In this document: one piece after another, positions 36,326 to 62,176 of the stretch
Numbering within the stretch: the first letter of the stretch is position 1
How the letters are laid out: each line of letters opens with the position of its first letter
From: Cystobasidiopsis lactophilus
Taxonomy: Eukaryota > Basidiomycota > Agaricostilbomycetes > Agaricostilbales > Chionosphaeraceae
Length of the DNA stretch: 64,000 nt
Direction of reading: 5' to 3'
Assembly (NCBI GenBank): GCA_001599975.1
Contig: BCIO01000003.1
Location: 1,240,001 to 1,304,000, forward strand
Made by a program: the position numbers and the translations under genes
The notes under the pieces: model-generated
Told to the model about the DNA's origin: nothing
Databases searched by the model: none
The model's input: the letters and a program-made list of their open reading frames with translations, nothing else

Positions 36326-39300
36326 TTACTGCCGTACCTTTCGTACTGCAGCAATGATGTAGTCGTGCTTTAAAAATGGGATGCGCATCTCCACCAGCCG
36401 CCGAGCCTGCCTCCACCGCCGCTGCGGCTCCAATGCCTTCAGCAATGCCAGGTCCACCTGGCCAGACTCTTTGGGGTAGAGGATGAAGTCGGCAGGGGTG
36501 AGAAGAGAGCGCAAAAGGGAGCCGAGTAGGAAAGAGATGATCGCCACCAAGATGATGAAACGCAAGGTGTAGACGCGGCCAGTCGTTGGGCCACTGGTGG
36601 CTGGCGACGCAAAGGCCTGGGTAGCGGCAGTCAAGCCTCCGAGCACGTTGGAGAGCGTTGTGCTGGACCCTTCTCGATCGTGGCCTGCCTTGTCCGCCTG
36701 TTGACCCGAACCGATCTGAGCTGTATCCAGGCTTCCCATCGATTGAAAACGCACCTGATCGACTGACAGTCGCCTGACGAGCGCTTCTGGGAAGATGCCG
36801 TTCTCTTTCGGCTTGGCCCTTGTTTCTGCCGCCACGGCCGCCTTCTCCGACACAGGCACTTCCAATGTCGTCGACTTGTCTAGCGTGTTGGCGGTGTCGG
36901 TGATCAAGCGGCCAGCAATTGCGATGGGCTGCCTGAGGTTTAAAGGCAAGCCGTCCACCAAGGTCGATGCTGCGGGCGGCAGGCGTCGAGGAATCCTGTG
37001 CCGATAACACTATCAGACTCGATCAGCCACGGTTTGGAAGTCGCTTACCGGCTTAGCTGAGCAGCATGGACAGACCACTCCTCGTCCGAGTGCTGCTCAA
37101 AGATGATCCGGCTCTCGCGCTCCGAGACGAGCGGCAGGTCGTTTTCTTTGTATACAACATGCAGGCGCGGTGAAGCCTTCCTGTCGAGCGGCGGCGAAGC
37201 CAGAGGGTCGTGGATGGCAGCCAAGTCCACAAACACCAAGGTGGCCTTGGCCGAGACTTGCTTGAACCAATCTGGTGATGGCCGGCGCTGCTCCCGCAAG
37301 GGATCATTGACGGGCGACAGATATTGGGCTGTGGGTAGGCTGAACCGCAGGAGGTATTGCTTTTGCTGGCTCGGCGACATGGTGGTGGACACACTGCTCT
37401 GAGGCATCTCGTGGAGGCTGATCCGAACGGGAAGGTCCAACTTTTTGCCCTCGACCACGCCCGTGTCAAACTTGGCCACGCCACCCTCCGACTCCACCAG
37501 GGTTACTGTGAGCTCGTAGTTGTCGAAAGACGGTCGGGAGTCTAAGATAAGTTCGGCAATAACATAATCTGATGATTTGGTTTTGGATTTTGAAGGCGAA
37601 GTTGGAAGAGAAGTGGTTGATGGCGGTGAAGTGCCTAGTGTAGAGCCCGGGAACGGGATTCCGCCTGGATGTCGAGTGACAGGCGCCTCTTCCTCCACTT
37701 GGTCGAGCTTGGGCGACTTGGGAATGGCGGCCAGTGAGGCCGGGGAGCGCAGCAGCGGCATCCGGCCTGGCTTGATTGTGCCGTGGACTGGTGTCGACGG
37801 GCTGCGCCCATGTGCTTTTGAAGGGGACGCTCCGCTAGAGGCATTCTCGGGGCCAAAAGCGGGGATCAAGACGGCAAAACGGAATTGGGAGGCGTCTGGC
37901 GCGAAGGAGGTGCAGATGAAGTTGGGCTCCTTCCGCTTGTAGGCTGAGTTGAGGACCCATTCGCAGTCGTCGGCGATGTCGGAGTTGAGGGGACCTTCCA
38001 CTTGGACGGTGAAGGCTGGAATCTGCAAGCGGGGCACTGGGATATTTTGTCGAGCTTGCTGTGCCACCAAGTCGATGACTTTGAGCGGGCTGGGATTGAG
38101 CATAGAGCCGAGCGCCTGAGGAACCGAGCCTCCCCAATTGACGCAGGAGAAGTAGGAAACGCGGGTTGAAGGGATGGCGAACGTCTCGGAGGTGTAGGGG
38201 TCGATCGTCTCAAGCAGCCAGCCTTCGAACAAGACTTGGCCGAGCGGGTAGACGGTGGGGTTGAGGCGCGATTGAGGGAAGTTGGCGGAAAGTGGACAGG
38301 AGGCCGACGCGATGAGATAGATTTGAGAAGTACTGGAGGTGGCTGAGGCTGACGGAATGCGAATGTGCGAGTTGATGGTAGCGAGGTGGAAAAGGCGGCT
38401 GCGAAAGGTGAGGAAGGTCGGCTTGGTGACCTGCATAGATGTGAAGCAGCCGTTGCCAAACGATTCAAGCAGCTGCGAAGCCTCGAGCCGCGAATCCCAC
38501 TTGAGACGGGCAGCTGGGTTGACGACCTGTGCCAAAAGCTGCTCCGCTGCCAAGCCCTCGACCACCTTGTCGCCTCGCATGATGGGGAAAAGCGTTGACA
38601 GCGACGACACAAAGCGTTTTCGGACGAAGCCTCCCTTGTCCGAGATGGTGGTCCATCCGGGCACTGGCGAGCTGAGCTCCGGGCCTTGGACGGCGTGGAA
38701 TGCCTGCAGCAAGGACAGCGCATCTAGCGCATAGCTCAGCGATGGCCGGTCCACTTCGTCTCTGGGCTCTCGCAAAGCAGGCGGAGTAGCTTGAGTCGGG
38801 CTGCTGGGTGCTGAGTCTGGCGGCTTTGGGCTGGAGCTCCGTGAAGCAACGCTCGGTACTTTGGCGGTGTGCCACTGGTCCAAAGGGACCGGGCTGGCTT
38901 TGATGCGCTTCTGGCTGGACAGTATCTTGAGCTTATCGTTGGGCAAAGCCTCGTTGTCCACCGCGATCTTGGCGCCGTTCACGTAAACCGTGCCTTTCGC
39001 CCTTGAACTGGGTCCTTTGCGAACCAAAACCATCATCTTGTCCGATCCAGTCGCCCCAGGATCGTGCTCGATTGTGACCCAGCACCCGCCGCTGGTGGCC
39101 AGGCGGTGGCGAGAAAGCGCTGATACCCGCGTTGGCGGTGGGTCCGTGACAATGTCCAAGCTGGACGCCCAGATGTCCACGTCACAACGGAGCTCGCACT
39201 CTATTGTTTGCTGATCAGCCTTTTTCGCCACGATCGGCTCGCTGTCTGCGAGGGCCACGCCGCCAGCGCTCGGCGAGATCGGCATGACGGTCTGGATCGT

Positions 39301-41403
39301 CAAGGGCTTGTATTCGAGCTTGAAAGAGCCTTTGTCATGATTGTAGTGGGCCATGGAAGCTTTGGCGCCGAGCAAGCGGGTGGCAACCGGCGGGGAGCCA
39401 AACTTGATGGTGAAGTCGCCGACCCCGGCGACGGACGACACCATTTGCGAGTAGGTCCACGACTTATTGGACCAGCCTCTGGGGTCCGTTTGCTCTATGA
39501 GCGTCACTTGAGTGGTGGTCGGCGACAGCGCCTCGATGCACCACCCTTGGATGACGGTGCTAGACCGAATAGTGTTTGGCGGAAGGGATGGCATGCTGGT
39601 GAAAAGGTGGGTGTCGTCTACTGAAAAAGCGAAGATGTGCACCGAAGTGGGTGATTTATATGCCGTCCGCAAGAGAACAGAATCTCGAGCCCTTTGGTAA
39701 ACACATCAGCACGTGAAGTCGCCGGAAAGGCGCGTTGCCTTACCATGCCGGCCAAACTGCCTTCATTCGAGTGTACCAAAGTGAGCTTAGCTCGTCCAAA
39801 TCGTCCAGCAGGATGGCTTCCTCCAGGTTCTTGTCCCAGTGCATCCGCGCGCCTGGGCTGGCCACCGTCCCAAAGAGATCCCATACGCCAGCGCCGACGA
39901 AAGTGGCAACCGCCCTGAAGATGGTGACAGTGGGATCAATGGAGTTGAGCTGGCTGACAGAGACGCCACGGCTCTCAGTGATGTGGCGCCATTTTGCTTC
40001 GGGCTCCTGCAGCAAGGAAGCAAAGTAGGTATACGAGCGCTTGATCAAAGTGGCTGTCTCTTGAGAGGCTGCCGTAATCTGCTTGATTGCGGCGTCTGGC
40101 AGGACGGAAGACGAGCTGCTGGCCTCCACGGAGCTGGCTCGACTGGGCGCGCCCACTGCCGCTGCTGCTTCTTCAAGAACCCGGCGCGTGTGCAGAACTG
40201 GGTCTCTCGTGTGAATGGCGTCCACTGTGAGGGTGTTGTTGTTGACGCGAATGATCTTGCCCCCAGCCAGGCGGCGAACCGTCACTTGAACGCGAGCGAC
40301 TTGGTCCGGTCCAAGCGGATCATGCGAGATCTTCCAGACCAATCGAGTGGCACCTTCTGCCTGGCCGGCCTGTGATGTCCAGCTGTTGTCTGTCTTGATG
40401 CCATGCCCCGACACTTTGACCTGGATCTGCCAGCCGTGCGCCTTCGGCAGTGCAATCTCCACCGCACGCTCCAATCTGCGCTTCTCTTTCAGCATTTGCA
40501 GGTCATCCAGACCCTTGATCGCTCTCTCCTCTGCTGCGTCCAAATCGTCCTCCGCTATGACAGCGTAGTCCAGAGTCAACAGCTCGTCGGCTCGTGAATA
40601 AGCGCAGTTCGACATCTGTACGCCTTTGCCGAACCCGGACGTGAATGGTAAAGCGTCGCTTGAGGTCCGAATGTAGTCGACAAGGCCGGAGAGGAGGGCC
40701 GCCAGCTCAGAAGGCGAGTGGGCAAGCACCGCGCCTTTCAAGGACCACTTTGAAAAGATTTGGATCCGGCCCTTCTCCGTGCCAGGTTGCGTGCCATTGG
40801 AGGAGGTCGCGGCTGGGAGCTGGATGCACACCGCGAAGAGGTGCACCACAGACCGAACGTAGGGTGGACTTGGCCGCAGGTATGCTGGCTCGTCGGCGGC
40901 TCTGGGCAGAGAGGTCGCGACGTGCATCAACGTTTGAGAGTCTCCGAAGGTCTTGGAGATGGTGACGGCGTCCCTCGGGCTCGCGGGCCAGCCAAGGCGG
41001 TAGTTTGTTTTGGCAATAAAAGTTTGAGAGTCGGTGACCTCTTCAATGTGCGCGCTTTCGACCAGCCGGTCCCAGGCGGGCCTAACCTGAGGCAAGCTGA
41101 GGACAGCCTTGAAGTCGTCGATGTGTGCAGAGGCGTCGACGGCGAATTCGGCTGTGGCTCGAATGATGTCTGCCCCGCGCCCAGCTTTCTTGTGCACAGA
41201 GACGTCGCTGAGCAGGCCGACGCCGTTGCCGGCCTCCTTAGTCTTGCCTTTGCTGTTGAGAGACACGGCAACGTCGGCTGTCGAGACGGGCTTCCACGAC
41301 TTGGACACCGAGGACGCCAGCAGCGCCCGAAGCTCCTGAAAGGCGCCGTCCAGAGCGTCCTGGTAGCGCTGCTTGACTCTGTCCAGAACATTTGAGAGTA
41401 GTT
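36326..41403 (-). CDS. giant START-like lipid-binding domain protein with C-terminal membrane segment
   Basis: A protein of roughly 1,600 residues with repeated START-like modules. The first visible exon begins after an acceptor at 41403 (LLSNVLDRVKQRYQDALDG); the initiating exon is upstream and unresolved. A two-base-overhang splice near 39700 joins TRMKAVWPAW to ARDSVLLRTAYKSPTSVHIF, so the 39740-41308 and 37045-39672 open frames form one protein. A second splice near 37020 joins HAAQLSR to IPRRLPPAASTLVDG. START-like sequence appears several times (KWRHITESRGVSVSQLNSID, VIQGWCIEALSPTTTQVTLI, RGWSNKSWTYSQMVSSVAGV, VLFEGWLLETIDPYTSETF). Near the C-terminus is a hydrophobic helix, YTLRFIILVAIISFLLGSLL. 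The stop is TAA at 36326-36328. A lipid-transfer role at a membrane contact is an inference. Confidence 0.7.
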
Positions 41404-41918
41404 CTACACGTATGAGGGTCAGTCGTACTCAGCAGACTGCATTGCTACGTGTTCAGTCACTGCATCATCTTTCGCGGCGGTCGTCGATTGCGGAAGGGAT
41501 GTGGTGTCTCCAGGAGGCTCGCGTCGCCATCATTTCTCAAATCAGGTCTGCGCGTCTGCGCTATCCACTCAGGTCTAATCCGTTACCCATCTCTGGTCAG
41601 AAGCAAGCGAGCTCTTGGCGCTCCTCTATACAAGTTGAAGTCTTTTGCCTGGTCGCTCTTTGGCGCCACATTTGCTACACGCAGGAATCCCACCATAAGC
41701 CCTATAGAACAGAAGAATGCATATCGAAGAAGAAGAGTGGTGAGGTAAGTGGACATGGTGATTTGGCGTGCTGCATTGTGGCCTTCGCATGAATCGCGGC
41801 GGTGGCCGTCTCCTTGGGTCTTGTTGTTCAAGCCGGTAATGTGTCAGTACATGTACGCCATTGCTGCAGCCCAGCTGTTGTAAGTCGACATGGTCAGCGT
41901 GCCCAAGGAAGAAATGGA
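41404..41918. other. intergenic region; should contain the first exon of the START-like gene
   Basis: About 515 bases between two minus-strand genes. The first exon of the START-like gene must lie here or further upstream, because its visible 5' exon begins directly after an AG acceptor. I tried the ATGs near 41435 and 41510, but none gives an in-frame GT-AG join. A hydrophobic frame around 41660-41760 is open but unsupported. Confidence 0.4.
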
Positions 41919-45959: not shown

Positions 45960-47005
45960 CTAAACGCGCATGTTCTCGATATTGGTGAGGTAAATGTCAA
46001 TGGCCCCGACCTCCTGCAGCTTGTCGAGCACGGTGGCGTACTCCTTGCGCTCGACCATGACGTTCACCGCCACCCAGCCGTCCTCGTCCAAAGCGGTGAT
46101 GGACGGCGCTCTCCGACCCGGGGTGATCTTAGCCGCTTCCTCCAGCTTGGAGCGCGGAATGTTGTAGGTGCACTGGACGTACTTCTTGGCGGCCAATACA
46201 CCGGCAAGACGCTGGTGGACTAGCTTGACTAGCGGGAGATGGGAGAGGTCTTTGGGAGTGACGGATTGGATGAGCACGGCTTCAGAAGTGAGGATGGTTG
46301 CTATTGGGTGCAAGCCAGCCGCCCGCATTGTTTCCCCAGACTCTGTGCGAATTTGAATCAGCTTCTTGCACCAGAAAGAAAGCGTGCAACGGGGGCAAGA
46401 CGTAAACGCACCGACCAAATCCACAATGCCATCCGCCAGACCCAAAGCGCAGGCCGCCTCGACCGACCCTCCCACGTACTCAATCTTGGTCGGCGCTGCC
46501 CCTGCGGCCTGCTGCTTGTCCAGCTTGCCAAAGTACGAGCCGGCCACGTTCTCAAAGCTGGTCACCACTTTTTTGCCGACCAGCTGCTCCAGCTCCTTCA
46601 CCGGCCCGGCCAGCGGCACCTGCACCTGCAGCTTGCACTTGCCAAACCCCAACGGCAAGACCTCCTCCACCAAGCCTTGCAAGCCGGCCTCAGCGACCAT
46701 GTCCTGCCCGGTGATGCCCAGGTCGACGTTGCCTTCGCCCACGAACCGGGGGATGTCCGCTGCGGGCAGGAAGACCAGGGCGATGGCGTGGTTGCGCACT
46801 AGGGCCACGTCTAGGCGGTTCGACCGGGTGAACTGGATGTCGGCGCCTTGCAAGAGCTCCAGACATTTTTCATACAGCCGCCCTTTTTTGTTCAGAGTCT
46901 CAGCTTTCTGTCTCGATGCTTGGTAGCTGTGTGGATTAGGAGCAAACCTTTCTTGGGAATGGCGAATAGCAAACGGCCTTTGAGTGCCGGCAAGATGGAA
47001 TCCAT
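45960..47005 (-). CDS. HIS1: ATP phosphoribosyltransferase
   Basis: First enzyme of histidine biosynthesis, condensing ATP with PRPP; long form with the C-terminal regulatory (HisG_C) domain. The ATG at 47005 (MDSILPALKGRLLFAIPKKG) is joined by an intron to GRLYEKCLELLQGADIQF. Further blocks are RSNRLDVALVRNHAIALVFL, DIPRFVGEGNVDLGITGQD, GFGKCKLQVQVPL, KKVVTSFENVAGSYF, KIEYVGGSVEAACALGLADG, ESGETMRAAGLHPIATIL (PRPP-binding) and the C-terminal APSITALDEDGWVAVNVMVE with DIYLTNIENMRV. The stop is TAG at 45960-45962. Two introns. His-mediated feedback is expected from the family's C-terminal domain. Confidence 0.96.
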
Positions 47006-47290
47006 GGTGGTGCTCCTGGCAGAACAAAATCAACAAGCGCCCGAGTCAAACGTGCCTCGGCTGGTGGCGACAACTCTTATGGTCGACAGCGTCGTTCAAG
47101 GGCTGGAGGTTTTGAGTGCGTTAGATTCCAAGGGATGCGCACAGACAGCCGTAGAGACAGAGCAAGCCCGAGGAAGTGTCCACACGGAATGAGACAGAAG
47201 CAGTCCCAACCTGCCCTTGCCTCGCAGTCTCGACCGCTTGGTACTCGACCACCTCTTCTTTTGCAGTATCAACTCTTGAGCCCCGGGAAC
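47006..47290. promoter_or_regulatory. divergent promoter of HIS1 and the 47291 gene
   Basis: About 285 bases between divergent ATGs. A Gcn4-type TGACTC element was not noticed on either strand in a visual pass, so this is only a positional call. Confidence 0.4.
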
Positions 47291-54710: not shown

Positions 54711-56493
54711 CTAAGCTCGACCTTCAACCTTGGCCACGGCTGCGGCAAAGCGCTGCCGCCCGATGCTCAGCTTCTTGACGTCCTGTTGCTCCTTCTTATC
54801 CGAAACGGCGGGACGGGAGGTTGGCTGGTTGACCTTATTGCCCAGCACGGCCGGCTTGCGCGCTCGGACTTGGACGTTGGGTGGCAAAGCCACGTCGGTG
54901 AAGCGGCCCGTTTCAGCTGGCGAGTCCTGCAGCACTTGCGCTAGGGTGGATGCCATCCGGGAGGGTGCTGGGACTGGAGCGGCCGGTTTGGAAGCCGGCG
55001 CTGGCTTGGGTTTGGTAGTGGCGGTGGCGAGGGCTGGGCGCTCGACCGGCTTGGGTGCCTCTTTGGGCTGGGTGAACTCGATGGGCACCATCTTCTCGAA
55101 CGCGGCGGCTCGTTGAGATGGTGCGGGCGGCGTTGCAATGCTGTCGAGCTCCTGGGCCATCTGGAGGGCGTCCCACGAGGCCTTTTCTCTTGCCAACTTG
55201 AGCTTCTCAGCCTGAACCAAAAAAAGGATTCAGCCCTCTCTTACAGGGGGAGAAGAAAGAAGGCGCGCGCGAGATCTTTCATCGGCTGCCTTTGAGGAAA
55301 GCATCACACACCGCCAAGGCCTCCTCCTGCCGCCTGAAGGTCGCGTGCGAGTCTTCCAGCAGCTTGCGTTCTTTGGCGAGTTGCTTGAGCTCCTTTTTCC
55401 GCGCCTTGTCTTCTTCGCTTCTGCAAGTCATCACAAACATATAAGCTCGAGAATAAGGGAGCTAAAGGGAGAGGGCACTTGCTGCTTCTGGGTCAAGGCC
55501 GCTTGCAGCTTTGCAATCTCCTTCTCTTGCGTTGAATTGGCCGACTTGAGTTGGGCGATTTGCGACTCAAAGTTGGCCGAGACCTCCTTCCAGAACGCGC
55601 GCTCGGTATCGAGCTTGTCGGTGGCCTCGGTCAGCTGAGCCTCTGTAGCGTGGTGATCGTCACTGAGGGATGCGAGCCGCTGCTCTAGCTGGGTAGATAG
55701 ACTGCCTAAGAAGGATTCGAGCTCTTCTGCTTGTAGCGTCAAATGCGGTTCTGGGTGTAGGTCGGCCTGCGAGAGCGCCTTCCCGTCAGTGTTTACTTCG
55801 CGGAGAGGGAAGGGTTGAACGCACATCTTGGACGATCTGGGATAGCGAGATCGGTTCCACGCCGACCGCCTCGATGCAGTGCTGGCTCTGGCCTATCATC
55901 TTGCCCAACACCAGCCTGAAGCTCTCGTTCTCGTTGACCAAGTTCTGGCGGACCTCCTCCAGATCCCTGAGCGCCTCCTCCAGCAGTGCCCGCTGCCCGT
56001 CGTCCGCCGCCTGCTTCTTCCGGATGGCTTGGGCGATGAAGGCCCGGCCATTGGCCACGGGCGCCGTCGACGCTGAGGCCGAAGCGAACTTGGCGAGCAT
56101 GTCGGCCATCTCTCGCTCCTTGCGCTTCTTCTCCTGCTCCGACGTCGACTTGACGTACTGCAGCGCCAGTTTAGACTTGTGCAGGTCCTCCTTGGTCATG
56201 CCGTGCGCCCGCTTCTCGGCTTCCAAAGTGGAGATGGCTTGTGTTTTGGCGTTGAGGGCGAACTCGCGCTCTTTGGCCGAGCTGGCAGCCGCCGCCTTGG
56301 CTTTATCCGCCTCCTTCTGGGTGCGCTCCAGGTCGTACAGCAGCGACGAGTGGTGCGTGGACACGGCGGATTGATGGGCGAGCGCCATGGAGATGGCCTG
56401 GGTGAGCTTCTTCAAGGCAGCCGCTGGGTCTTTCGAGCTGATGGGCTCGTGCAGGAAGCCCTGGGCCATCAGCTGGGCGTTGATGGCGTCCAT
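54711..56493 (-). CDS. coiled-coil protein, ADIP/SSX2IP (Msd1-like)
   Basis: Probable microtubule-organising-centre anchor. The start is the ATG at 56493 (MDAINAQLMAQGFLHEPISS), the conserved N-terminus of the ADIP family. A long coiled coil follows, with ALKKLTQAISMALAHQSAVS, LLYDLERTQKEADKAKAAA, KEREFALNAKTQAISTLEAE, LLEEALRDLEEVRQNLVNEN and IEAVGVEPISLSQIVQD. Joined exons then give SLSTQLEQRLASLSDDHHA, ATDKLDTERAFWKEVSANFE and KLLEDSHATFRRQEEALA. The C-terminal part is Pro/Ala-rich and probably disordered. It ends SIGRQRFAAAVAKVEGRA at 54711-54713. In fission yeast the family member Msd1 anchors minus ends at spindle poles; the same role here is inferred from family only. Confidence 0.75.
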
Positions 56494-56657
56494 CCTGGGC
56501 ACTGTAGCGAGCAGCTGGCGGGTGGAAAGAAGGGCAGGCTCCCCTCAAAAAAAGAAAACAATGGCCCAAACGCTGCTTGTGGTGGCTTGTGTGTCAAGAT
56601 CCCTTCGAATTACAATGCAAATGATAATAGAAACGCGTGGTATCATGAGAGGTCAGT

Positions 56658-57528
56658 TTACGTGGGTTGCTGTTCGGCAAAAGTCAGCGTGAAGCGCTGC
56701 GGTGGTGGAAGGGGGCTCACGATGTGGACGGCGAGGGCGGAAGCTGAAGACGACAGTGTCAGTGCACTACTCACAAGAGCCAGTGCTTCATACCTTCAGC
56801 ATGCATGACGATCTGAGCCCTTGATGAGGACCGAACCAAGCAATGAGCGAGGGAAGCGAAAACGCACCTGATCAGCCGCCACCGATGTTTGCCGCATTTC
56901 GATCTTGACATTCAGCATCTGTGCTCTGACGCTCAGGATCGACCCAATGAATGGAATGAGGTGGACCGCCAAACGCACCGCAGTAGCTCCCATTCCTCTA
57001 GCCTTTTGCTGTAATCTGGAGACGACGTGCTCCCGCATTGAAGCGGCCGCTTCGGCACTGAGCGGCTGGTCGTTGGTGCGGGGTCTGGTGCAAAAAATCA
57101 GCGCGTAAGAAGAGGAGAGGGGTTGGCAGGACGAACGGGCTGTCGAAGCCGGCGAAGACTGGTGTGGCCCAAGGTAAGCGGCAATAAGGTCGGTTCGGCG
57201 GAAGAGGCTCACCAGGGCCAATAATGTCTGAGCGATCCAAGGATCAGAAAAGAGCCAAAGCAGAGGAGGAACGCCACTCACACCGGACGAAGAAGCCAAC
57301 AAACTCGTCAGTCTCACCTGTTCGTTTCCAATCAGCCCAAAAATGTCGAGGTGTGGCAGAAGTACAACGTACTGTAAGGCATCATGACCCCTTGAAAGCC
57401 ACTCTTGTACGGGTTCTCTGGGCAAAGTGGGCACCGGCGTGAACAAAGGTGGCGCTCGCAGGGCGGAAGCATCACTCACTGGGGAAAATCTGGAGGCGGC
57501 CACTCTTCAGCCAATTACTGATAGCCAT
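56658..57528 (-). CDS. tandem YbjQ-like family, copy A
   Basis: Small protein (about 155 residues) of the tandem quartet at 56.6-62.2 kb. The ATG at 57528 gives MAISNWLKSGRLQIFP, then a splice gives KNPYKSGFQGVMMPYS and ETDEFVGFFVRY. A 15-nt exon at 57213-57227 contributes IIGP, then come VFAGFDSPPRTNDQPLSAE and VVSRLQQKARGMGATA. Two more exons give MLNVKIEMRQTSVAADQ, then IVMHAEASALAVHIV and a tail ending FAEQQPT at the TAA at 56658-56660. The [LI]xxKAxxxGxxAxxxxxxE and [MI]xAxAxAVHI pattern resembles the YbjQ/UPF0145 fold, a pentameric family of unknown function. The resemblance is judged by eye. Seven or eight introns, unusually many for this length. Confidence 0.6.
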
Positions 57529-58477
57529 TTTTGAGTGTGTCTTACTCTGTCAGGAAACTCCGAGGGGCCTGCGCGGGCACATCAAAGACGTTCACACGGA
57601 ACGAAGGACGTATGCTACGCACTGATCAGCCGCAAGGCCGTCGCAGAGTGACGCCCGGTGCTCATAGTGCTCTTGATGCTAGTAGAGAGTGGCAGGAAGG
57701 GATACAGAGGAGAACGTGGGCCAAGGAGAAAAGGTTGCTGCAGTTGCTCTGGTCTTTGTCGGTTTCAGTGCGATAACGATAAGGAGAGCTTGGTGGAGGA
57801 AGAGAGGGCTTGGGACGGAACGACGAAGGTCAAGAATGCACAAAAGCAGCCTAGTCGACTTCATCGACACCGGAAAGCTGGATCTCCGTGAGGCGCTGAA
57901 TTGCTGAGCCGTGTTCACATCATAGGTCGAACGCCGGCAACCTCGCCTCTTTTTCCAATGACCCTTGACTGGGTGTACAAGAGGGCGTCAATCGAGCAGC
58001 GCGGGACAGAAGCACAGGTAGCAGCAGGCACAGCTGAAGGTGGGCAGGTGCAGAACTTGAAAGAGAGGGACATGGCATCGCCGCTTGGGCAGTCAGGCTA
58101 GAGGAACAAAGCATCCGACAGGTGTGTTTTGATTTCTGGATTCAGATAAGGGTGCATTGGTCTTGAAAGGGGTTCACGATGCGAGAAACGGGCAGCGGGC
58201 AGTCCAGACGACTGAGACGAGGCATAGACCGGGGCCGCTGGGAAAGCGCAGGTCGACGCCCCACAGGTCTACAGCATTCCGCCTCTAGTCTGATGGATGG
58301 TTCTCAACACGGAACCGACCAAAATAGGGCCACTCCATAGGACGAGTGGAGAAGAGAGTCGCACATCGCTTGGCAGGCTGTCAGCGCGAGTGGTCTCCTG
58401 GTACGTCTAGTGGTACCCTGCAGCTGTACATTCCACGCATTTTACATAATCTCTTCTAACAAGAATGCGAGGGCGCG
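57529..58477. other. spacer between copy A and the relic
   Basis: About 950 bases without a supported gene. Frames occur on both strands (for example minus 57679-57918) but do not match the quartet blocks or any family I know. It includes the promoter of copy A. Confidence 0.35.
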
Positions 58478-58655
58478 CTACGGGAAAGAAGACTTGAAGG
58501 GAACATTCGCCACAATATTCCTCTGCTTCCAAATCAGTCACAGCGCTCGAGAAAGCAGAAAGTCTGGGAACGTACAGCATTAACAGCATGCCCGCGAGCT
58601 TCTATGTGGTCGATGATCTGCCTGTTGCCACCGCGCCAGGCAAAGGGTTGCAGCG
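58478..58655 (-). pseudogene. truncated relic of the YbjQ-like family (last two exons only)
   Basis: The minus strand reads FAWRGGNRQIIDHIEARGHA followed by VNA, then a GT donor, then an acceptor leading to RNIVANVPFKSSFP and a stop at 58478-58480. This matches the end of copy B (HQLIDHIDARGNAVNA, then KNIVANVPFKASFP). The position and phase of the intron are the same. Nothing resembling the upstream exons (FPxNPY, DSP or AEV blocks) is found before it, so only the 3' end was duplicated or the rest has been lost. The exon itself carries no stop, so the relic appears young or partly constrained. The upstream boundary is approximate. Confidence 0.7.
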
Positions 58656-58774
58656 CTGAGTGGCGCAGGTTCGGGAGAAGAGGGATTAGTGGTAAATGCA
58701 AACTGCTCATTACATGCAGAGAAGCGTGAAAGAGAAGGCTAAAGCAGGGGCGGCAAGGACCTCAAGCCACGGCC

Positions 58775-59447
58775 CTACGGGAATGAGGCTTTGAAGGGAA
58801 CGTTTGCCACGATATTTTTCTGTGTTCTCTGATTGCCTCAGCGGGTACACATAGAAGGAAGTGGCCCAGAACGTACCGCGTTGACAGCGTTCCCGCGGGC
58901 GTCGATGTGGTCGATGAGCTGGTGGGCGCCACATCGACTTTGGCGGTACGAGAAGGTCATGTTGATCACGCCCGTTCCACCCATTTCGAGTGCCTTCTCC
59001 TGTAGCTTGGCCATCGCCATTTCCTTCAGGACAGCCGAGACCTCGGCGCTGGAGACGAGTGGGGTGAGTGGCGTCGGGGTGGTGGCGTGGGTGGCAAATT
59101 CTCGAAGAGAAAACTGACCTGCGCGGTTCGTCTTCATGTCGAGCGCTGTGATATAGCTATATTATAACCAAGACATAGAGTCAAGAGGGACTACTCACGG
59201 AGAATCTGCGCCCGCAAAGATGACACCAAGATTCTTCGAGTAGGTTTGCTGTTTTCTTCATGTCAAAGATGCCAGCCCAATGGTGGTAGGAGTATAAAGA
59301 ACGTACCCCTTGGAACTTGGAGGTGGTGGACACGGGTGCCATGTAGCCCTCGATAGCGCTGGTGTAGGGGTTGGTGGGAAAAAGGCGATCGCTTGGGAAA
59401 GGAGCTGGCTCCAGACAGAGGATGGACGGTCGGACAAGAGATGGCAT
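58775..59447 (-). CDS. tandem YbjQ-like family, copy B
   Basis: Second quartet member. The ATG is at 59447 (MPSLVRPSILCLEPAPFPSD), then RLFPTNPYTSAIEGYMAPVS and TTSKFQG. A splice gives QTYSKNLGVIFAGADSP, and a 27-nt exon at 59119-59145 supplies ARHEDEPR. Then come SAEVSAVLKEMAMAK, LQEKALEMGGTGVINMTF and SYRQSRCGAHQLIDHIDARG. The last exon reads KNIVANVPFKASFP and the stop is TAG at 58775-58777. Block order and intron positions match copy C. The protein has about 145 residues, with no signal peptide or membrane helix, so it is probably soluble. Identity is from alignment with the sister copies; function is unknown. Confidence 0.65.
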
Positions 59448-60313
59448 GTTGAAAAAGTAGAAGACGAGATCGGGCGATTGGAGGCTGATAGAGAAAAGGA
59501 GAGGATAGGCAAGGTCGCGAGGAACCGGTTCAAGGTAAGGGCGGCCGCCAGGTAACCGAGAGCGTACGAACCTTGAACGAGGACAACTGAACTGCTTCCA
59601 AAGTTGAAGAAATCAGTGGAAGGGAGAGAACGTGCGCTTTGCGAGACGGCGGTGTAGTTGCGCCTGCCCAGCCCGTAGCGCACTATCGCCTAGCTCTGAC
59701 GCCTCAACAGCAATGAAGAGGGTGTTTTCCGCAAGCCTGCTTTGCCTTCTGTACGAAGAGCAATGGCGCAGAGTATCGATAGAGCTAAAGTTGCCTGTGG
59801 CGTTGGGCGGCAAGTGGGCCGAGGCCAACATCGAAGCCAGCATCAAAGAGCAGCAGTCAGCGTTGGGGATAGAGATGGAACAGAGAGAGGAGAGCTGCAA
59901 AGGAGCGCATCTCTCCGATTCACGAACGTGTCGAGATGAACCAAGAAGGCGCCGCAGGGCAGTGCTCTGATGAGCGCTGTGGCAGGCCAAGAATAGTTCT
60001 AGCGCAAATCTTACGATCTTGTGAAAGTGATCGTTTTCCTTGATTAAGTCAAGTAGAGGAGGGCAAGGAAACAAGAAGCGAGAGTTGCCAGGCTGCCGAG
60101 CACCCTAAAGGAAGGGGGTGTGCTCAAGGGAGCAACGAGAATGGAATCAAACAACAGGCTTTGAGCAAATAGACTACGCCACAAAGAACGACAGAGCACA
60201 AATGAAGAGGAAAGGGGGGTGGCGGCGGGACAGGTTCGCTGACAAGAAGGCTTCAGAGCAGAAGCCCCTCCGAGAGGCCCACAGCCACATCGAACATCCC
60301 AGATAGCCAATGC
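59448..60313. other. spacer between copies B and C
   Basis: About 865 bases. A minus-strand open frame (59613-60074) and a plus-strand one (59632-59970) overlap each other and resemble nothing I know. The stretch presumably contains the promoter of copy B and the 3' end of copy C. Confidence 0.35.
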
Positions 60314-60949
60314 CTAGGGAAAATGAGGCATCATAGGCACATCTGCCACGATTCCTTTCTGCGCGCAAGGTCGTCAACCCAGGTCCCCGAGAGTGCAAGG
60401 ACAGGGTCACCCACCACCGTAACCGCATCTCCCGTAGCTTCAACGTGGTCGATGGTTTGTTGAGCTCCGCACCGGGAGCTTCGGAACTCGAAGACTAAGT
60501 TGACCACGCCGGAACCGCCTAGCTGGAAAGCCTTCTCTTGTAGGCTGGCGAGTGCCAGTTCTTTCATATGCGCGCGAACTTCGGCACTGGTTACAGAAAG
60601 TGAGAAATGGTTTCGGTAAACCAAGTCGGTAGACACAGACCTTATAGGTTCGAGAGCGCGGGCTGTTCAAAACTCAGAAGCCGCGACCTCGGTCTTTGGG
60701 CGCAATGACCCACGGCGAGTCGACCCCAACAAAGACTGGACCAATTTTGTAGTTGTAAGTGAGCTGAACGCGCACGATCAGGAGACAGGTCAAAATCTGG
60801 ACGCTTCAATAGCTCACCCCAAATAGCTGGCTCGTCTCCGAGATGGGAGCCGTGTAGCCATTCACTTGATAAGGGTTTCCCGGAAAGAGCCTTTCGCCCG
60901 GAAAGGGCGCGGGCTGCAGCACTTGGATGGAGTTCGTTTCCGAGAGCAT
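60314..60949 (-). CDS. tandem YbjQ-like family, copy C
   Basis: Third quartet member. The ATG is at 60949 (MLSETNSIQVLQPAPFPGER), then LFPGNPYQVNGYTAPIS and ETSQLFG. A splice gives LTYNYKIGPVFVGVDSP. A 22-nt exon at 60641-60662 supplies RALEPI with part of a Ser codon, then AEVRAHMKELALAS, LQEKAFQLGGSGVVNLVF and EFRSSRCGAQQTIDHVEATG follow. A last exon gives GIVADVPMMPHFP and the stop at 60314-60316. If the 22-nt exon is skipped or the flanking intron retained, the frame hits a stop. The match of the microexon to the same block in copies A, B and D is the main support for the model. Confidence 0.65.
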
Positions 60950-61522
60950 GATTCGAGGTGGCGGTTCAGAAAGCGGGCAAAGAGGCAAAGAGCAAGCAAC
61001 AGAGAGGACAGGGGAGCTCGTCGTTCTTTGGCAACAGTTCAGGGCTTGAAAATGTGTTGGGGGAAAGCAGCTAGTAGCTGTCAGCGCGGCGAGTATCGAG
61101 TACGACAATCACCGCCACAGGTCGGACCTTCATCGCGAGTCGGAGGTCCAATCTGCTGAGGTCTAACATCTGAGAGCCATGTGAGACCTCTGCAGCTGTT
61201 GAACTGGGCGAATTGCCAATGTGAAAACACTGCGAAGCCGCAGCTTGCAGATTAGAGCGAGGAGAGGGACGGATCCGAGGGAATCGCGCCGACACCCTTG
61301 GGGAGGCATCAAATGACAGGGGCACTTCTAGACCCTCAGAGCAAATTGAGTAGATCATCAAGTCAGCGGCCGTAACATCGAAGGCTGTTTGTGGCAAGGA
61401 GAAGAAGAATCGCCACTGTCAGGGAGTGCTCGAGAGCGCGGTCGAATTCTGGTGCGGTGGCAAAAACTAGCAAATGCAAGTATGGAGCAAAGTACAAGAA
61501 GAGCAAAGTGCCAGAAAGGTTG
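60950..61522. other. spacer between copies C and D
   Basis: About 570 bases without a supported gene; it holds the promoter of copy C and the 3' end of copy D. Open frames here do not match any quartet block. Confidence 0.35.
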
Positions 61523-62176
61523 TCAAGGACCCAGAGGATGGTTGACTTGGAAGGGGACAGGGCCGACGAGGGGCTTAGCAGTCACGGCGAGGCCGGTGCC
61601 TTCCAGGTGGACAAGCTGCGAACAGCGTCAGCCATTTGTCCAGGGAAGTAGGGCCAGGGCTCACCTTCTGATTCGATGCGCAGTTTGAGGTGCGCTCTAC
61701 GAATTTGATGCGGATGACCCCAGTTCCGCCTAGGTCTGGGTTAGCATAGGCCATCAAAGATTCGGCTGCGAGCCTCACCTAGCTGAAGGGCCTTCTCTTG
61801 GATGCGAGCTATGCAGGTCTCTTTCAAGGTTGCCATCATTTCTGCGCTCAAGGGCTGGTCGTTGATGCGAGGTGGGCTGTCCACGCCCGCCCAGACAGTG
61901 CCCAGAGTCTCAGCGACCACGAACTGTGAATGGTTGAGTCCTTGAAGGGTTCTAACGATCGATTGGACATACGCCAAACAACGTTTCCCCAAATCCATAG
62001 GGCATCATGAAGCCTTCCAACTGTTTCCAGGTCACCTAAGCCCTGAATAAGTGAAAGAGGTCACTTACAGCAGGGACATAGATGTTACGCGGAAAGACTC
62101 TGTCAGGGAAGTCTGCGGGCTGGAGCGTGGTCAAGGCAGACGGTTTCAGGCCCGGGACCTGCAAAGTTTGGAGCAT
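61523..62176 (-). CDS. tandem YbjQ-like family, copy D
   Basis: Fourth quartet member, first in transcriptional direction. The ATG is at 62176 (MLQTLQVPGLKPSALTTLQP), then ADFPDRVFPRNIYVPA. A splice gives LEGFMMPYGFGETLFG and another gives FVVAETLGTVWAGVDSP. Here PRINDQPLSAEMMATLKE continues in the same exon, so the intron present at this point in A, B and C is absent. Then come IQEKALQLGGTGVIRIKF, ERTSNCASNQK and, after an intron, LVHLEGTGLAVTAKPLVGP, ending at the TGA at 61523-61525. The end block with ExTGxAV is the closest of the four to the YbjQ C-terminal signature (SGTAV). Soluble, about 165 residues; unknown function. Confidence 0.65.

Follow-up and report, generated by a model that had tools for sequence, protein, structure and literature searches.

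A tandem array of four small genes

The 64-kb window of Cystobasidiopsis lactophilus DNA analyzed here (the window being the whole stretch, in whose numbering all coordinates are given) carries four minus-strand genes, g1 to g4, and a truncated fifth copy within 5.5 kb, from the ATG of g1 at 62176 to the stop of g4 at 56658, as a sequence-only reading of the stretch had proposed. The encoded small proteins belong, as a divergent eukaryotic variant, to a known fold family lacking an established function, that of YbjQ (UPF0145; Pfam PF01906, YbjQ_1), and on comparison of the sequences the most conserved loop of YbjQ is replaced in all four copies by G-[VAF]-DSP. The genes were rebuilt by hand splicing of the minus strand:

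61523-62176, minus strand: g1, YbjQ-like gene of 5 exons (62176-62069, 62020-61973, 61923-61779, 61729-61665, 61615-61523) and 4 introns; 152 amino acids
60314-60949, minus strand: g2, YbjQ-like gene of 4 exons (60949-60818, 60763-60714, 60586-60418, 60358-60314) and 3 introns; 131 amino acids
58775-59447, minus strand: g3, YbjQ-like gene of 5 exons (59447-59307, 59248-59199, 59145-59119, 59048-58877, 58819-58775) and 4 introns; 144 amino acids
59119-59145, minus strand: micro-exon of g3, 27 nucleotides, encoding ARHEDEPR and then S across the junction, with phase 2 kept on both sides
58478-58620, minus strand: truncated fifth copy (the "relic"), found by blastn, with exon parts 58620-58576 and 58522-58478 and an intron between them
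56658-57665, minus strand: g4, YbjQ-like gene of 12 exons and 11 introns of 50-62 nucleotides; 134 amino acids, cysteine-free

All 22 introns of g1 to g4 have GT..AG borders, and 20 of them measure 48-62 nucleotides, the exceptions being intron 2 of g2 (127 nucleotides) and intron 3 of g3 (70 nucleotides). Two phase-keeping internal exons can be enumerated in the interval of g3 that follows GADSP, and 59145-59119 is the one that aligns, its ARHEDEPR falling on PRINDQPL of g1 and PRTNDQPL of g4. The same enumeration in the 127-nucleotide intron of g2 gave two phase-keeping candidates, neither of them acceptable: one contains a stop and the other is only 6 nucleotides long. Also set aside were a g2 model with a second intron of 101 nucleotides (stops inside), g3 models lacking the micro-exon or having a wrong third exon, and a g4 acceptor seven bases early, before exon 9 (out of frame). 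Judged by eye, the products have no obvious secretion signal.

The block-by-block likeness described in the sequence-only reading largely holds in the spliced products. The FP-x-N-x-Y block near the N-terminus, the GxDSP block and the KA-x3-G-[GA]-[TS]-[GA] helix occur in all four. The (P/S)xSAE block is found in g1, in g4 and, once the micro-exon is included, in g3 (as PRSAE); it fails in the g2 model, which reads DSP-AEV. The IDH..A.G.AV end is strict in g2 and g3 and degenerate in g1 and g4. In the alignment the N-terminal block extends to FP-x(1-2)-R-x-FP-x-N-x-Y, its F, P, R, F, P, N and Y being invariant in the four copies, and GxDSP is followed in three of the four by a run x-R-x-x-D-x-P-x-S-A-E. 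Copies g1 to g3 further share a C-terminal tail K-x-[IL]-V-x2-VP and a cysteine in an S-x-C motif between the last two strands.

Pairwise blastp of the spliced products (g3 in the form without the micro-exon) gives 37-56% identity with E-values of 1.6e-25 to 4e-53; similarity is highest between g2 and g3, and for each of g1 and g4 the other is the top match. Hand splicing could bias such a comparison towards similarity, and unspliced contiguous exon pieces were compared as a control: exon 3 of g2 is 59% identical to its counterpart in g3 over 57 columns. By these alignments the likeness of the four products is far above chance.

The introns also bear on the age of the array. One position (alignment column 54) is shared in column and phase by g1, g2 and g3, and two more (columns 70 and 137) by g2, g3 and g4. 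This degree of sharing was reached by none of 20,000 random placements, and with g3, the close relative of g2, left out, the remaining sharing was reached by 23 of 20,000; as a point against the reading of old duplications, the splice sites were picked manually, in sight of the copies, and these counts are somewhat favorable to it. Nonsynonymous divergence (dN, Nei-Gojobori method, NG86) is 0.41-0.67 across the six pairs of g1 to g4, and synonymous divergence (dS) is 1.33-2.33 in four pairs and saturated, not computable, in the other two. The duplications are most likely younger than the introns. As judged from the coding sequences, the four genes are old paralogs of common descent under purifying selection, in agreement with the earlier view of an array that has been kept rather than newly made.

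Between g3 and g4, the 5'-truncated copy (about 58620-58478) aligns to g3 at its 3' end, at 73% over 151 nucleotides, intron included. It corresponds to the final two coding stretches of that gene, with open frame, splice sites and stop all kept. Over 30 codons including the stop, it differs from g3 by 10 synonymous and 5 amino-acid changes, and the differences at codon positions 1, 2 and 3 number 3, 1 and 14. With the stop excluded, dN is 0.079 against a dS of 1.51; strong purifying selection thus acted on the fragment during most of the time since it was duplicated. The truncated g3-like piece is thus where the sequence-only reading had placed a relic, yet that name sits poorly with so clear a signature of selection; it is either a complete fifth copy that has recently lost its front or a piece still in use. 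A 100% match over 61 nucleotides seen in this comparison is an overlap of the chosen ranges and not a repeat.

Kinship with the YbjQ family

The earlier reading had placed the array in the YbjQ fold, and the Pfam search with the four spliced proteins (g3 in its micro-exon form) returns PF01906 for each of them as the single family matched at E up to 10, with E-values of 1.2e-3 (g1), 2.1e-3 (g2), 1e-4 (g3) and 5.4e-4 (g4). A profile of the fungal proteins, aligned by hhalign to a profile built from nine prokaryotic YbjQ proteins taken from plasmid records, covers template positions 1-103 of 105 at a probability of 95.3 and an E-value of 2.1e-8. A second sample comprised 101 distinct prokaryotic domains. 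It was collected through searches with profiles and patterns, which makes it lean to canonical members. Against it the fungal profile scores 42.3 (probability 91.7), and the best of 200 column shuffles reaches 19.8. Searched with the profile of these 101 domains, g3 scores 22.3 bits, g1 17.2, and g4 and g2 14.7 each; the best of 4000 shuffled sequences scores 10.1 bits. The conserved portion comprises the helix and the next two strands ending in G-x-AV, with A-L-AV instead in g4. The first two strands are aligned by the profile-profile comparison; HMMER reaches them in g3 only, with 2.4 bits. The relation to PF01906 is thus shown by sequence over the helix and the two strands that follow it, and for the first two strands it is covered by profile-profile comparison only.

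Several observations weigh against this kinship. Three of the four proteins fall under the 23-bit cut-off of PF01906 (g4 at 21.0, g1 at 19.9 and g2 at 19.1 bits, with g3 above it at 23.3), and all four Pfam matches are confined to profile positions 52-102 of 103. A search of the PDB with the fungal profile reaches the solved YbjQ chain 1y2i at an E-value of 0.34 only. On the favorable side, the 57-residue exon piece of g3 and g2 is modeled as a helix (2-21) followed by two strands (28-36 and 43-52), with a mean predicted local distance difference test score (pLDDT) of 76.9 and a predicted template modeling score (pTM) of 0.47, the helix-strand-strand order being as expected for the C-terminal half of a YbjQ domain. 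Foldseek with this short model against the PDB gave 106 matches at E up to 10, the best at 1.7 and none significant, and no YbjQ chain appears among the best 50 of the 106. In the model of the 48-residue exon 3 of g1 (pLDDT 71, with 53-62 in the first 20 residues), the helix is seen and the expected strand before the loop is not. These piece models would neither prove nor exclude a YbjQ-like pentamer.

The resemblance could then be one of convergence only, in a short helix-strand-strand piece of an unrelated fungal family, in keeping with HMMER and Pfam matches that lie mainly within about 50 residues and with the Foldseek result. We regard this as very unlikely: the hhalign alignment spans nearly the whole domain, none of the 200 column shuffles reaches its score against the 101-domain set, and no other Pfam family is listed for g1 to g4. 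Common descent with the YbjQ family is held here with moderate to high confidence on the strength of these profile comparisons. That part of the earlier reading stands; the proteins are not plain members of the family, with most of them below the Pfam cut-off and the characteristic GG..Y loop absent from all four.

The PDB search returned three sequences in all at E up to 10: a tau chain, 1y2i and 7rxu ("Lipoprotein"). The top match, the engineered tau chain 6cvn_D (E 1.9e-4), adds up four repeat matches, each 24-25 residues long and scoring 5.3-5.6 bits, and was rejected as chance. The fungal stretch S-x-C-G-x4-I-x-H does resemble the tau repeat of 6cvn_D, and this too is taken as chance. In PHROGs, one unnamed family was matched by two of the four proteins, with a best E-value of 0.0026.

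A prokaryotic donor was looked for without success in the collections searched. The fungal profile gave 90 pattern matches and no confirmed relative in the collection of genome contigs, and 64 pattern matches and no confirmed relative in viral contigs; a search of plasmids with g3 found no relative. Together with the shared introns, this argues against a recent transfer; an old transfer from a prokaryote is possible.

The exchanged loop and the neighborhood

A GG-x(3-5)-Y loop, a criterion set in this analysis as near-universal in the sample and distinct from Pfam's definition of the family, is present in 100 of the 101 prokaryotic domains, the exception looking frameshifted, and in none of the four fungal proteins. 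DSP shows the converse distribution, with none in 101 and four in four. In the joint alignment, 14 columns before the loop are empty in the fungal rows, at TGEAILGANIFRDF of E. coli YbjQ. One could see in this the drift of ordinary, fast-evolved PF01906 members that retain the ancestral YbjQ function, all the more as g3 lies above the Pfam cut-off and the helix and last two strands align well. However, the GxDSP that takes the place of the old loop is invariant across four old paralogs and foreign to every prokaryotic domain sampled, and a constrained new motif of this kind is unlike drift; this explanation hence appears rather unlikely.

For all four products the demonstrated step is the kinship in sequence, and the assembly and binding proposed here are inferred from it. 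We favor, as the probable explanation, small proteins that each consist of a single divergent YbjQ-type domain, in the order strand, strand, long helix, strand, strand, with a new N-terminal motif added and with the central GG..Y loop swapped for G-x-D-S-P. The subunits would form a ring of five, like the solved YbjQ proteins, and the swapped loop together with the FP-x(1-2)-R-x-FP-x-N-x-Y block might form a new surface for binding a ligand or a partner. The copies would have been kept probably since these surfaces differ or since the proteins assemble with each other. As a best guess, then, they are ring-forming binding proteins with a new, paralog-specific surface.

A different possibility is that the proteins bind metal or selenium through cysteine, in the manner of an archaeal selenium-binding protein that belongs to this fold class. 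Cysteine has a role in selenium binding by that archaeal protein. The S-x-C cysteine of g1, g2 and g3 would fit such a role, PF01906 is described in Pfam as "Putative heavy-metal-binding", and the archaeal protein shares the fold (a passage in PMC4092069). Nevertheless, a general cysteine-based metal or selenium binding is quite improbable because g4, with none, departs from the other three copies; 74 of the 101 prokaryotic domains are likewise cysteine-free, and the family's metal label is itself a prediction, as a passage in the same source has it (PMC4092069).

Returning to ring-forming proteins with a new surface, the loop may be of special interest in light of the YbjQ-like structure 1vr4, a pentamer in which, according to a passage in PMC2954204, the central part of one subunit is folded as a sheet rather than as helices while another subunit has the conformation seen in 1y2i. 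The exchanged loop may be this helix/sheet switching part of the YbjQ subunit because it is central in the sequence. A bolder version, which we consider unlikely, is that the switching segment has been exchanged for the short, conserved DSP loop and that a mixed ring of five, built from four (perhaps five) paralogs whose loops differ, presents a binding surface specific to the fungus.

The genes around the array in the window are of several kinds. Adjoining g4 on the same strand is an ADIP-family protein (55789-56544, minus strand; PF11559, 37.4 bits against a cut-off of 34.3). About 10 kb from the array lies an ATP phosphoribosyltransferase (HisG; 45963-47045, minus strand) and about 13 kb away a eukaryotic glutathione synthase (PF03917; 42931-43842, minus strand). 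Two consecutive long open frames at 37048-41428 on the minus strand each match the START domain (PF01852) and are possibly one gene with two such domains or a tandem pair. The Pfam scan also places a LIM protein among these neighbors. Together with the short introns, neighbors like the glutathione synthase, the ADIP-family protein and the LIM protein mark the DNA as eukaryotic and most likely fungal.

Comparison with known systems

The nearest known system is E. coli YbjQ with its solved relatives (1y2i, 1vr4, 2gtc), to which g1 to g4 are 22-26% identical in the joint alignment. Common to both are a long helix that closes with A-x2-[LM]-G-[AG] and the pair of strands after it, the terminal AV and, early in the sequence, a G-x-[VI] strand. 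Unlike E. coli YbjQ with its 107 residues, the fungal proteins have 131-152; they have the GxDSP loop in place of GG..Y and the 14-column gap before it, and they carry in addition the N-terminal block and, in g1 to g3, the C-terminal tail.

The fold class of YbjQ, as listed in a passage in PMC4092069, further includes RcsF, DUF1471, DUF74 and the archaeal selenium-binding protein, and pentamers are recorded there for the last two and YbjQ. With the Methanococcus vannielii selenium-binding protein (2jz7), RcsF, DUF1471 and DUF74 the fungal proteins can be compared by fold class only, and the names of the three PDB sequences matched at E up to 10 include none of them.

The C-terminal domain of C2CD5, a eukaryotic YbjQ-like domain, would be another relative of the fold; the one Pfam family listed for g1 to g4 is PF01906. 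YbjQ_1 also stands in the domain-distribution table of a coral genome paper (a passage in PMC6214176), so its presence in eukaryotes as such is not new; in passages of the open-licence literature we found no description of a fungal YbjQ family. Among prokaryotes, YbjQ_1 is widespread in both bacteria and archaea, and it was found in 63 of the 81 genomes sampled from a single phylum and in 10 of 14 genomes used as controls. Some open frames of 329-333 amino acids in bacteria (G065:C36, G051:C10, G047:C46) match positions 59-100 only of the YbjQ_1 profile, and are perhaps a separate family sharing that unit.

What has been said of function comes from scattered sources. The thiamin phosphate synthase work reportedly concerns YjbQ, a different family. 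The crediting of YbjQ with that activity, in a passage in PMC7084401, looks like a mix-up of the two names. YbjQ rises during recovery of E. coli persisters (rec1.5/amp log2 1.71, P 0.026; rec1/amp 0.81, P 0.059; a passage in PMC6414554), and a UPF0145 protein is among those cross-linked to a Clostridioides difficile cyclophilin (a passage in PMC6459899). YbjQ thus has solved pentamers and yet, in these literature passages, no established function. Four old eukaryotic paralogs with a constrained replacement of the loop are a natural comparison for what that loop does, and the array offers a set of genes open to testing by removal.

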